Below, piece after piece: positions 1,637 through 17,766 of a DNA stretch of 41,816 bases. Origin of the DNA: Bacteroidales bacterium (GTDB lineage: Bacteria; Bacteroidota; Bacteroidia; Bacteroidales; UBA4181); assembly GCA_031270985.1 (NCBI GenBank), contig JAISWR010000030.1, positions 1 through 41,816 on the forward strand. The letters run 5' to 3'. The notes beneath the pieces are model-generated. The model was not told the origin of the DNA. It was given only the letters and a program-made list of their open reading frames with translations, and searched no databases. A program made the position numbers and the translations under genes. Within the stretch, counting starts at the first letter, position 1, and each line of letters starts with the position of its first letter.

Positions 1637-4600
1637 ATGGACTTTAAAAGAATCAACAGTATTACGGGTTGGCTGGTGTTTATCATCGCATCCGCCACCT
1701 ATTTGATGACCATAGAACCGACGGCAAGTTTTTGGGATTGCGGCGAATTTATTTCTACCGCGTACAAGCTGGAAGTGGGACATCCGCCGGGAGCGCCGTT
1801 TTTCATGCTGGTAGCGCGACTTTTCACCCTGTTGGCGGGCAGTAATGTGGAATTGGTAGCAAAAATGGTCAACAGTTTTTCGGCATTGTGCAGCGGCTTC
1901 ACCATCTTGTTGCTGTTTTGGAGCATCACCCATCTGGGGCGAAAACTCACCGGCAAGTCTATCGGGGAACTTTCCGCGACGCAAACCGTTTCCATCATTG
2001 GTTCGGGCGTGGTGGGCGCACTGGCATACACGTTTTCCGATACTTTTTGGTTTTCAGCCGTTGAGGGTGAAGTCTATGCGTTTTCTTCCCTGTTCACGGC
2101 GCTTGTTTTCTGGGCAATTCTCCGCTGGGAAGACGAGGCTGACGCCCGTTACGCCAACCGCTGGTTAGTGTTGATTGCTTATTTGATGGGGCTTTCCATC
2201 GGTGTGCATTTGCTGAACTTGCTGGCTATTCCGGCTATTGGGCTGGTGATTTACCACCGCAAATACAAGGTTACGCCCAAAGGCACTATTCTCGCCCTGC
2301 TGGCTTCCGCAGTTGTGTTGCTGGTCATCCTTTACGGCATCGTGCCGGGTGTGGTGCAGATAGCGGTGTGGTTTGAACTGTTGCTGGTAAAAAACTTGCA
2401 TTTCCCCATGAACACGGGTATTATCGTTTATGCCATACTGTTAGTAGGCGGCTTTATTTTTGGGTTGCATTATTCGCTTAAGAAAAATCGATTTGTCTTA
2501 AACAGTGCATTGCTGTTCGCGGTGGTCATCATCATCGGCTACAGTTCGTATGCCGCCCTGATCATCCGTTCGAGCGTGGATCCGCCTATGGATCAGAACA
2601 ATCCGCAGAATCTGTTCAACCTGCAATATTACCTCAATCGCGAACAGTACGGCGACCGTCCGTTGGTGATGGGGCCTTATTTTAACTCGCCTCCGATAGC
2701 CATCAAGGATGTAAAAACGTTATACGCCAAGCGAAACAATCAATATGTGGAAACCGGCAAAAAACAGGATTATGTGTACAGGAATGGGACAACCACTGTG
2801 TTTCCGCGCATGTACAGTCGGGAACAAGCACATGTCGACGCCTACAAAAGATGGGCAAATATACCCGCTACACAGGGTGACAATAAAATCCCTTCGTTCG
2901 GGCAAAATCTCCGCTTTTTCTTCTCCTATCAAGTAGGATGGATGTATTTCCGGTATTTCTTTTGGAACTTCATAGGACGGCAAAACGACATACAGGGGCA
3001 CGGCGGACCGTTGCAAGGCAACTGGATTTCAGGCATTACCGGCTGGGACGAAGCTCGGTTGGGACCTCAGGATTTGCCGGAAACGCTGCACAACAAGGGA
3101 CGAAATGTCTATTACTGCCTGCCGTTCCTGTTAGGGTTTATCGGTCTGCTCTATCAATATCGTCGTGATCGCAAGAATTTTCTGGTCACCCTGATGCTGT
3201 TTTTCATGACGGGCATCGCCATCGTGATTTACCTGAATCAAACGCCTTACCAGCCTCGAGAGCGGGATTACGCATACGCGGGATCGTTCTATGCCTTTGC
3301 GATATGGATAGGGCTGGGCGTGATGGCGATGATTGAGTCGCTTCCGTCAAAGATGCGAAACGTCGCTCTTGCGGTTGCCACCAGCCTCGTCCTGCTGGTG
3401 CTTGTGCCGGGCATCATGGCGCAGCAAAATTGGGACGATCATGATCGTTCGGGACGATACACCGCACGCGACTTCGCTCACAACTATCTGGTTTCGTGCG
3501 ACCCCAATTCCATCATTTTTACCAACGGCGACAACGATACTTTCCCGCTCTGGTATGCACAGGAAGTGGAAGGTATAGGCGACAGCATCCGCGTGGTCAA
3601 TCTCAGTTATCTGGCTGCCGATTGGTACATTGACCAAATGACACGGAAAGCGTATGGTTCCAAATCGTTGCCGATTTCACTCAAACCGGAACAATACATG
3701 AGCGGTACACGTGATTATCTGTATATCAGCGATTTGTTCAACGGACAACCCATAGAATTGAAAGAAGCCATGGACTTCGTGGGCGACGATAACATCCGTA
3801 CCAAAGTGGTGCAAACGCAAGACGGCTTGCTTTGGACAGGTAAGATCAACGAGATCAATAAAATATATCTCGATCAGGCAATAGATTTTTTACCTTCCAA
3901 AAATCTGAAAATAACCGTGGACAAGCAAAAAGTGCTGCGCAACGGAACCGTTGCCCTGAAAGATTCCGCACTGATTGTCCCCGAAATACGGTGGAACATC
4001 AGCGGTGAAAAAGGAGGCGGCGAGGAGCGAATTTACAAAAACTCAATGATGGTGCTGGACATTCTTGCCAACAACAATTGGGAACGTCCCGTATATTTCG
4101 CCATCACTGTATCGCCGGAAAATTTCCTGAACCTTTCGGACTATTTTCAAATGGACGGGTTGGCATACCGCTTCGTTCCTATCAAAACGCCGAATACTTA
4201 CGGTGAAATGGGACACGTTGACGCGGACAAACTGTACGACAAGATGATAAATCACTTTCGTTGGGGCAACATCAGTGATTCCTCCGTATATCTGGACGAA
4301 ACCAACCTGCGCCTGCTGGCGCGTTTCCGCAGCAATTTCGCCAGACTTGCGAGGAATTTGAATGAACAGGGTAAAATAGATTCCGCCATGTTTGTCTTAA
4401 ATAAGGCTTTTGAAGTGATACCCACTTACCAGTTACCGCTTAATTATGCGGACATAGAATTTGTGCAACAGTATTATCTTGCCGGCGCTACGGAAGAAGG
4501 GAATCAATTGGCAAAAAAGTTATTTGACGTAACATGCGCCGAGTTGAAATATTATCTGAGTTTCCCGAAAGAATTTAAGAACGACAGAGATTTGGACAAC

Positions 4601-15073: not shown

Positions 15074-15154
15074 TCCCGACTTCGACACGCTAAAAAAATA
15101 TTTTCATATACGTTAAAGTATGTTAAAAATTGTTAAAATTATATTTTGAAAAAG

Positions 15155-15173
15155 TACTATGCTATGCATGGTA
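15155..15173. promoter_or_regulatory. Putative PadR operator, copy 1
   Basis: TACTATGC-TAT-GCATGGTA: two 8-base arms matching at 7 of 8 positions around a 3-base centre. It ends 14 bases before the -7 element and so covers the -33 region, where a bound repressor would block RNA polymerase. A PadR-family gene lies in the operon it would control. Binding by that protein is inferred. Confidence 0.5.
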
Positions 15174-15187
15174 TTAAAAATATTTTA

Positions 15188-15195
15188 TATCTTTG
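15188..15195 (+). promoter_or_regulatory. -7 promoter element, copy 1
   Basis: TATCTTTG, an exact TAnnTTTG match, 36 bases before the ATG of the truncated copy. The region around -33 is occupied by the inverted repeat and has no TTTG. Confidence 0.55.
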
Positions 15196-15231
15196 CACCG
15201 AAAAATAATCACATAAATTATAGACGACAAC

Positions 15232-15300
15232 ATGAAAAAAGCAATTACCATACACCTGAATAACAAGGCGTTTCAAATTGAAGAGGAAGCCTGTGCCTGA
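15232..15300 (+). pseudogene. Truncated duplicate of the PspC gene start (22 codons)
   Basis: The ORF encodes MKKAITIHLNNKAFQIEEEACA and stops with TGA. It is the same sequence as the start of the intact gene at 15450 with four residue changes; the stop corresponds to TGT (Cys) in the intact copy. Homology ends at the stop, so it is a partial duplication. It could still be translated as a short leader peptide, because its promoter and start are intact. Confidence 0.75.
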
Positions 15301-15374
15301 GGGATATATGTTGGATATTGCAATACTATTATGTTAAAATATGTTAAAAATTGTTAAAATAACGTTTTGAAAAG

Positions 15375-15393
15375 TACTATGCTATGCATGGTA
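15375..15393. promoter_or_regulatory. Putative PadR operator, copy 2
   Basis: Identical to the inverted repeat at 15155-15173 (TACTATGC-TAT-GCATGGTA), at the same distance from the -7 element of the intact operon. Sequence outside the coding part has drifted in places while both copies of this repeat are unchanged. Confidence 0.5.
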
Positions 15394-15407
15394 TTAAAAA
15401 TATTTTA

Positions 15408-15415
15408 TATCTTTG
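15408..15415 (+). promoter_or_regulatory. -7 promoter element of the PspC-PadR-PspC operon
   Basis: TATCTTTG, 34 bases before the ATG at 15450; the same arrangement as in copy 1. Confidence 0.6.
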
Positions 15416-15449
15416 CACCGAAAAATAATCACATAAATTAGATGACAAC

Positions 15450-15881
15450 ATGAAAAAAGTAATTACCATACACCTGAATAACAAGGTGTTTCAAATTGAA
15501 GAGGAAGCCTATGTCTGTTTGAGCAAGGCGTTGGCAAACTTCCGCGACAGGGAAGATCAGGTAGCCGAAGGTCTGGAAGGGAAAATTTCCGGAAGCAAAA
15601 CGGTGATCACCTATCCGGATGTGGTGGATGTGCTGTACCGGTTGGGCTATACGTTTTCGGAGAGTCCGCAGACGCCGTATTCAGCAAAAAGGCTGTACCG
15701 TCAGCCCAAAGACAAGCTGATAGCAGGCGTATGCACGGGTTTGGCTGAGTATTTCAACGTTGACCCCGTGCCGATCAGGGTAGTCTTTCTGATTGCATTT
15801 CTACTCGGGTCGCTCGGGTTCTGGGCGTATGTGGCGTGTTGGATTATTGTGCCGAAGTCGCCCAAATTACTTCACGCTTAA
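15450..15881 (+). CDS. PspC-domain membrane protein with N-terminal ferredoxin-like or ACT-like small domain
   Basis: A 143-residue protein. Residues 1-75 form a small domain starting MKKVITIHLNNKVFQIEEEAY, which recurs at the start of the larger PspC protein two genes downstream. Residues 80-140 are a PspC domain: KRLYRQPKDKLIAGVCTGLAEYFNVDPVPIRVVF, then a membrane helix ending WIIVPK. PspC proteins sense or transmit envelope stress at the inner membrane; the exact role here is unknown. It is the first gene of a tight operon (13 bases to padR, then 6 to the second PspC gene). The start is fixed by the duplicated promoter and leader. Confidence 0.85.
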   Translation: MKKVITIHLNNKVFQIEEEAYVCLSKALANFRDREDQVAEGLEGKISGSKTVITYPDVVDVLYRLGYTFSESPQTPYSAKRLYRQPKDKLIAGVCTGLAEYFNVDPVPIRVVFLIAFLLGSLGFWAYVACWIIVPKSPKLLHA

Positions 15882-15894
15882 ATACGATTATGCC

Positions 15895-16260
15895 ATGAAC
15901 GTTGCTAATGCAAAAGCCCAAATGCGGAAAGGGGTGCTGGAATATTGCATTCTTTCCGTGCTGTCCGAAAGCGACGCCTATCCGTCCGACATCATCCGCC
16001 GGTTGAAAGAAGTGCGGATGATGGTGGTGGAGGGCACGCTGTATCCGTTGCTGATGAGGCAGAAGAACGCCGGATGGCTGTCCTACCGCTGGGAAGAATC
16101 CACACAGGGGCCGCCGCGGAAGTACTATTCCATCACGCCGGCGGGGCGACTGTTCCTGCACGAACTGGATGCTTCGTGGAATGAACTGGTCGATTCGGTA
16201 CATCACCTCCGCCAGCGAACTGATAACAAACCATCGATAACCATCAATAACCATCAATAA
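15895..16260 (+). CDS. PadR-family transcriptional regulator
   Basis: A 121-residue winged-helix regulator. The core reads AQMRKGVLEYCILSVLSESDAYPSDIIRRLKE, then VVEGTLYPLLMRQKNAGWLSYRWEES and GPPRKYYSITPAGRLFLHEL, the classic PadR motifs (TLYP, PRKYY.LT..G). Start at ATG 15895 was chosen because the reading from 15793 runs through the preceding gene. PadR proteins are usually dimeric repressors of neighbouring genes, and in many bacteria they sit beside PspC or DUF1700-type envelope genes. Here the regulator lies between two PspC genes. Its likely targets are the inverted repeats at 15155 and 15375. The C-terminal tail (PSITINNHQ) is encoded by a 10-base tandem repeat. Confidence 0.9.
   Translation: MNVANAKAQMRKGVLEYCILSVLSESDAYPSDIIRRLKEVRMMVVEGTLYPLLMRQKNAGWLSYRWEESTQGPPRKYYSITPAGRLFLHELDASWNELVDSVHHLRQRTDNKPSITINNHQ
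16231..16260 (+). repeat. Three tandem 10-base units at the 3' end of padR
   Basis: CCATCGATAA, CCATCAATAA, CCATCAATAA in a row; the last unit contains the padR stop. Because the unit is not a multiple of three, gain or loss of one would change the final residues and stop position. Confidence 0.8.
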
Positions 16261-16266
16261 AGTAAC

Positions 16267-17766
16267 ATGAAATCTGTAATCACCATTCACATCAACGGCA
16301 TTGTGTTCAACATTGAAGACGACGCTTATCACAAACTGTCGGCATATCTGGATACCTTGACGGCGTACTTCCAGCAAGAGCCGGGCGGAAACGAAATCAT
16401 TGCCGACATTGAGGCGCGGCTTGCGGAATTGTTTGTGGAAACCGCCGCCGGCACAGTAGTGACGCTCGCAGACGTCACTCGTGCCTTGGAAACGCTCGGA
16501 TCGCCGGAAGATATTACCGGAACTGCGGAAACGGACCCCGACGGGCATACGCACACCGCCTCCGAACGGGAAAAAACCACGAAACGCCTGTACCGCGACC
16601 CCGACGGACGCTACATAGGCGGCGTGTGCGCAGGCATTGCCAATCGTCTGGGTATCAATCCGGCTATCGTACGGATATTGTTCATCATCGGACTGTTTTT
16701 CGGAGGAATGTTCGCAGGAATCTATCTCCTGCTGTGGCTCATCATCCCTTTGGCAAAAACCACCGCGCAAAAACTCCAAATGCGGGGAGAATCGGTAAAC
16801 GTCAACAACATCTGGAAACACATCCAAGAAGAAATATCCACCGACGCATCACTGCAACAGTCATTCCGTCAGTTTATCTCTGAAGCGGGAGAACTTTTCG
16901 ACAAGGTAGTGAGGATTTTCTTCCGGATAGTGGGTATTGGCGTGGGACTGCTGCTGATCCTCACAGGCATCGGCAGCGCTGTGCTTATGTTTTGTGTATA
17001 TTTCATGCAAGGACTCCTGTTCGAACACAGTGTAGAATGGGATTTCCTGCCGTTCCACGAATTGTTGCGCCACGTTGTATCACCCGCAGCCTACTACACC
17101 TTGTGTGCAAGCGGGATAATCGTTGCGGCGCTGATGGTCTTTGCCCTTATCTTCTGGGGTGTCCGGCTCATGACAAAATTCAGGATAAGGTACAAAATCG
17201 TACATGTCGCATTACTGCTGACATGGTTTGGCGGAATTGTCCTGATTGCCGTCACCGTTATGGTGGAATTTCGTCATCATGCGTGGCGCAATGACGTGAT
17301 AGAAACAAAAATGCTGCCGGTTGCCGATACCCTGTACCTGAAAGCCATTCCCTCCGAAATGAAAATATCCAACAACCCGCTGGACATATATTACGACAGG
17401 GGGAACGGACGTTTTTACGGAATGCCGCACCTGTCCATCCACAAAAGCGAAGACGACAGGATACGGCTGCGCATCAGGAAAGAAGCCAACGGCAGAAGCA
17501 AAATGGACGCTTATCGTTATGCCGAAGATATATCCTACCATGTAACGGTTTGTGATTCGTTGCTGCTGTTCCCCTCCTTTTTTTCGGTAGAACCGCCGCA
17601 TCAATGGAATTTTCAGTTCCTGAACATGACGCTGTACGTCCCCGAAGGAACAGTCATTATTCCCGACAAACTGTTGTGCGACAAGATATTTGGGGGCAGT
17701 CACCACGCATATTACCGACATAAATGGATCATGGAAAAAAACGGATTGCATAAATTGGAGGAATGA
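16267..17766 (+). CDS. Large PspC-domain membrane protein with C-terminal extracytoplasmic domain
   Basis: A 499-residue protein. Residues 1-85 repeat the small domain of the 143-residue neighbour (MKSVITIHINGIVFNIEDDAY ... DIEARLAELF). Residues 100-165 are PspC (KRLYRDPDGRYIGGVCAGIANRLGINPAIVRILF, then a membrane helix ending WLIIPL). Three or four further membrane helices lie at about 220-345. The C-terminal 150 residues are soluble, beta-rich and probably periplasmic. The design (small domain, PspC, membrane, beta domain) is known in Bacteroidota PspC proteins. It ends the operon 6 bases after padR. A role in sensing envelope state and passing it to PadR-controlled expression is inference. 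Confidence 0.85.
   Translation: MKSVITIHINGIVFNIEDDAYHKLSAYLDTLTAYFQQEPGGNEIIADIEARLAELFVETAAGTVVTLADVTRALETLGSPEDITGTAETDPDGHTHTASEREKTTKRLYRDPDGRYIGGVCAGIANRLGINPAIVRILFIIGLFFGGMFAGIYLLLWLIIPLAKTTAQKLQMRGESVNVNNIWKHIQEEISTDASLQQSFRQFISEAGELFDKVVRIFFRIVGIGVGLLLILTGIGSAVLMFCVYFMQGLLFEHSVEWDFLPFHELLRHVVSPAAYYTLCASGIIVAALMVFALIFWGVRLMTKFRIRYKIVHVALLLTWFGGIVLIAVTVMVEFRHHAWRNDVIETKMLPVADTLYLKAIPSEMKISNNPLDIYYDRGNGRFYGMPHLSIHKSEDDRIRLRIRKEANGRSKMDAYRYAEDISYHVTVCDSLLLFPSFFSVEPPHQWNFQFLNMTLYVPEGTVIIPDKLLCDKIFGGSHHAYYRHKWIMEKNGLHKLEE

Follow-up and report, generated by a model that had tools for sequence, protein, structure and literature searches.

Envelope-stress operons of the PspC-PadR (HAAS-PadR) type have been described through their proteins and gene neighbourhoods, in an account in which the word "operator" does not occur (PMC11237479). 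In Listeria, the PadR repressors LstR, LltR and LftR mainly repress their own operons, which encode membrane proteins, and autoregulation has been shown for all three (PMC6624303). The promoters of the primary sigma factor in Bacteroides and other Bacteroidota carry the -7 consensus TAnnTTTG (PMC7366714).

We analysed the 41,816-nt contig JAISWR010000030.1 of a Bacteroidales bacterium (UBA4181; assembly GCA_031270985.1), the whole of which is referred to here as the window. It contains an operon with the gene set of the described PspC-PadR operons, that is PspC, a stand-alone PadR and a PspC/LiaI-LiaF-TM/Toast-rack protein, and in comparison with them a tandem promoter is an extra feature (PMC11237479). 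The genes of the operon are as follows.

15450-15881, plus strand: first gene of the operon, short and intact, for a 143-aa PspC-domain protein (PF04024, 3.6e-24)
15892-16260, plus strand: PadR-family regulator gene (PF03551, 2.3e-17, 63.2 bits against a cut-off of 27)
16267-17766, plus strand: gene for a long PspC / LiaI-LiaF-TM / Toast-rack membrane protein, 499 aa (PF04024, PF22571, PF22744)

The regulator gene, which likely starts at the ATG at 15895, is the one PadR gene detected in this genome. In the 499-aa protein the Toast-rack domain (PF22744) scored 60.2 bits, and a HAAS domain scored 20.1 bits against a cut-off of 27. Upstream of the operon lies a gene for a peptidase C25 with a C-terminal sorting domain, which by its architecture would be PorU-like, and downstream on the opposite strand lies a RelA/SpoT gene.

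A partial tandem duplication at the start of the operon

Aligning the region before the first PspC gene with itself gave two units and a junction.

15109-15300, plus strand: unit 1 of the tandem duplication, with AT tract, operator, promoter, 5'UTR and 22 codons followed by TGA
15301-15329, plus strand: junction between the units, 29 nt, unique
15330-15519, plus strand: unit 2, the copy that runs into the intact PspC gene

The units are identical at 178 of 192 alignment columns (93%) and differ by 11 substitutions, over about 189 sites, and 2 indels. The AT tract with its GTTAAA repeats is present in both; the dyads lie 220 bp apart, as do the -7 elements, and the gene starts lie 218 bp apart. 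Since the operator pattern matched twice in the window against 0.00 expected, and nowhere besides the two units, the repeat is not due to chance. The sequence-only reading had described two copies about 220 bases apart that share an AT tract, an inverted repeat, a -7 element and a gene start, with inverted repeat and -7 identical and scattered changes in the flanks and coding part. The alignment bears this out, and it places the boundaries of the copies at the positions listed. We conclude that this is a real, lineage-restricted partial tandem duplication. For the junction, no source was detected on comparison with the upstream, downstream, PspC, PadR and porU-like sequences (best shuffle p 0.06-0.08, uncorrected, ten comparisons).

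An assembly artefact, for instance the alleles of two strains joined in a metagenome-assembled genome, would fit the fragmented state of the genome (146 contigs, 85% complete) and the lack of the repeat in relatives. However, the copies differ at 13 places (6% divergence), copy 1 has acquired a stop codon, the 29-nt junction is unique, and both copies lie well inside the 41.8-kb contig; two alleles could be joined in this way only through a long word common to both. We therefore regard an artefact as very unlikely.

The duplicated operator and promoter

Within each unit we found the same dyad, by pattern match, followed by a -7 element that agrees with the published consensus (PMC7366714).

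15153-15175, plus strand: operator dyad 1, AGTACTATG-CTATG-CATGGTATT, 23 bp, predicted PadR site
15188-15195, plus strand: -7 element 1, TATCTTTG (TAnnTTTG), 12 bp past dyad 1
15373-15395, plus strand: operator dyad 2, 23 bp, identical to dyad 1
15408-15415, plus strand: -7 element 2, TATCTTTG, 12 bp past dyad 2

The presence of TATCTTTG in both copies is shared with the primary-sigma promoters of Bacteroidota. Unlike those promoters, neither unit has a clear -33 TTTG; none was found in the -33 region of either unit, which is occupied by the dyad. A -33 element was likewise not identified in Flavobacterium johnsoniae (PMC7366714). Since the -33 position lies inside the dyad, a bound repressor should block polymerase.

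With the PspC protein as query we retrieved 29 other loci (L003-L031) from the genus, family and order for comparison. In 26 of them a dyad of this form precedes TAnnTTTG by 10-12 bp. The pattern of dyad, 12 bp and TAnnTTTG was matched in 108 of 295 genomes of the order at up to 3 mismatches and in 163 of 395 genomes of the class at up to 2; a backward control pattern gave far fewer matches. Among 91 genomes, the module (up to 2 mismatches) was present in 21, namely 21 of the 52 with a PadR gene versus 0 of the 39 without (Fisher p = 1.3e-6, an indicative value, as the 91 genomes are related and the lists were transcribed by hand). In 20 of these 21 genomes the PadR match follows the module on the same strand, at a distance of 74-1,409 bp. 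Because the module is confined to PadR-encoding genomes and precedes PadR in nearly all of those that have it, the dyad is very probably the PadR operator. This lends strong support to the earlier suggestion that the inverted repeat is an operator. A search of the open literature for the dyad sequence found no paper. The operon resembles those of LstR, LltR and LftR in pairing a PadR regulator with its own membrane-protein genes, and differs from them in phylum and promoter type, the PadR site here being predicted from sequence (PMC6624303).

The survey also gave two side observations. At L122 (G011:C19), positions 978-1020, a module with 2 mismatches stands on a contig other than that of the PadR operon, before a gene for a GYF_2 / CD225-like membrane protein; this gene is a possible second PadR target. 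Two relatives from the order (L016, 1062; L025, 1015) have a further, degenerate dyad 34 bp upstream of the main dyad.

The longest unchanged run between the two copies is 69 columns (p = 0.033 given 13 changes). The predefined 43-bp block from operator to -7 is also unchanged (p = 0.033, or 0.056 with substitutions only), and the 69-column stretch takes in part of the 5'UTR as well. The identity of this middle block is a weak hint of constraint on the promoter of copy 1, suggestive and not decisive; an unchanged block of this kind is also what gene conversion would produce. Because both promoter-operators are still perfect (a weak signal, p about 0.03), the first one, P1, is probably still bound by PadR and active.

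A selected role for the double promoter is possible. It might take the form of a two-promoter, two-operator circuit kept by selection, in which the first operator adds repressor binding, through titration or through cooperation or looping between the two sites, and P1 raises induced output. The perfectly kept operator-to--7 blocks would fit such a circuit. So would the doubling of site number in a genome where these are the only perfect dyads and a single PadR gene was detected, and so would the 220-bp spacing, which at 10.5 bp per turn is 20.95 turns and puts both dyads on one helix face. However, the arrangement is seen in one genome only, the statistics are weak, looping by PadR is an assumption here, and the in-phase spacing could be of the kind that arises fairly often by chance. 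We consider this circuit unlikely.

The 22-codon reading frame

The coding part of unit 1 was compared codon by codon with the intact gene.

15232-15300, plus strand: 22-codon ORF, apparently a relic in decay, derived from the start of the PspC gene

Copy 1 begins with ATG at 15232 and has 22 sense codons before TGA at 15298-15300; in the alignment this stop stands opposite TGT (Cys23) of the intact gene, whose ATG is at 15450. The sequence-only reading, in which a Cys TGT had become TGA and left a 22-residue peptide, was thus correct. The copies differ by 5 substitutions over the 23 codons, all 5 nonsynonymous and 0 synonymous. Copy 1 carries the changes V4A, V13A, Y21C and C23stop; V4 and Y21, both lost in it, are invariant in 5/5 congeners. 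At codon 22 it is copy 2 that has changed, while copy 1 retains the middle base of most congeners. Without constraint the expected nonsynonymous fraction is 0.73-0.81, so 5/5 would be seen with a probability of roughly one fifth to one third. The substitutions are compatible with no constraint, and we see in them no sign of a selected peptide. At 15442-15453, copy 2 has a 3-codon ORF (ATG ACA ACA TGA) that overlaps the real PspC start; copy 1 has ACG there.

It had also been proposed that the first unit could make a leader peptide. On this view the PspC gene would be regulated by ribosomes translating the 22-codon ORF of the P1 transcript. The start codon of the ORF stands in almost the same context as that of the PspC gene itself, and the ORF would probably be translated if transcribed. 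However, this proposal found no support, and we rejected it as highly improbable. The coding changes alter the protein at every difference, including positions that the congeners keep. The ORF was found in none of the relatives compared, where leader-peptide attenuation calls for a conserved short ORF. The P1 leader RNA folds no better than shuffles (z = 0.51), no switchable hairpin was seen in it, and there is no terminator-like site between the units (15300-15450). The most plausible reading of the 22-codon ORF is a relic, not a leader peptide.

Origin of the duplication and similar events in relatives

The genus consists of uncultured Bacteroidales known from metagenome-assembled genomes. 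All five congeners with the PspC gene (G002, G004, G005, G007, G008) have a single module, and their neighbourhoods differ. In three other congeners (G001, G003, G006), which are drafts so that absence is soft, we detected no PadR, no short PspC gene and no close dyad match; the best match in G006 differs at 2 positions and lacks a -7 element. This pattern is as expected if regulator and site were lost together. A search for sister strains returned only congeners at 57-61% protein identity and no conspecifics, so the species sample is one genome. Among the matches listed in the order and class surveys, no other genome has two complete modules less than 300 bp apart on one strand (G501 and G528, with two same-strand matches each, are unplaced). 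Since the five congeners have one module and no other close pair is among these matches, the duplication most likely arose on the branch of this species.

The idea of a simple duplication scar stands in part. A duplication did take place, and among the genomes compared it is found in this lineage alone, but the unchanged 69 columns hint at more constraint than a plain scar predicts. Relatives lacking the first copy, together with no transcript starting near 15200, had been named as the mark of a recent neutral duplication; the five congeners do lack the copy, and this shows recency, not neutrality.

A comparable duplication was found in G033 (L120), from another family of the order. As in the window, promoter, operator, 5'UTR and first codons are doubled before a PspC gene, here together with upstream sequence and with 8-9 codons (MKRTIQ-). 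Unlike in the window, the two modules are 550 bp apart, and the first copy now precedes a different gene, whose product begins MKRTIQMNREMKTINLIK... and in which the borrowed start is joined to a predicted secreted small protein.

L120 (G033:C55) 2999-3400, minus strand: predicted secreted protein of 133 aa in which a W-M-(F/L) motif recurs; its gene has a PadR-type promoter from the duplication and takes its start from PspC

This protein had no Pfam match. The borrowed promoter seems to have a gene to serve in G033, but only a stub in the window. By these two loci, there have been at least two independent partial duplications of the module.

Two genomes of the class, G658 and G675, also have two same-strand modules less than 1 kb apart. 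We rejected them as the same case; there the promoter was duplicated with a complete small gene, and the starts are not truncated. A module stands before each of two 102-aa predicted secreted paralogues (L126, G658:C6, 1103 and 2059; L127, G675:C6, 1035 and 1893), which suggests that in that family the PadR regulon includes small secreted proteins.

In what we consider the probable course of events, a tandem duplication specific to the lineage of this species took in only the beginning of the PspC-PadR-PspC operon, namely its PadR-controlled promoter and the first 22-23 codons, and the gene start in the upstream unit is now a dead relic. PadR would bind the dyad, which includes the -33 region, and block the promoter. 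Because the promoter and operator of copy 1 are still perfect, the operon most likely has two identical PadR-repressible promoters; P1 would still fire, and its longer transcript would read through the second promoter, P2. Counting against this explanation are the unchanged 69-column block and the fact that 5/5 nonsynonymous changes are also frequent under drift on few sites.

The default consequence of unit 1 would be a modest change in dosage, with two promoters and two operators instead of one. There is a slim chance that the duplication is a selected form of the switch, in which an upstream operator in helical phase alters the strength of repression or response, and that duplication of the module, as in the window and G033, is a recurrent route of rewiring. 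The G033 case suggests that partial duplication of the module can bring new genes under the same stress control. Small as the evolutionary event in the window is, it draws attention to an operator-promoter module that is conserved in PadR-PspC stress operons across Bacteroidota.
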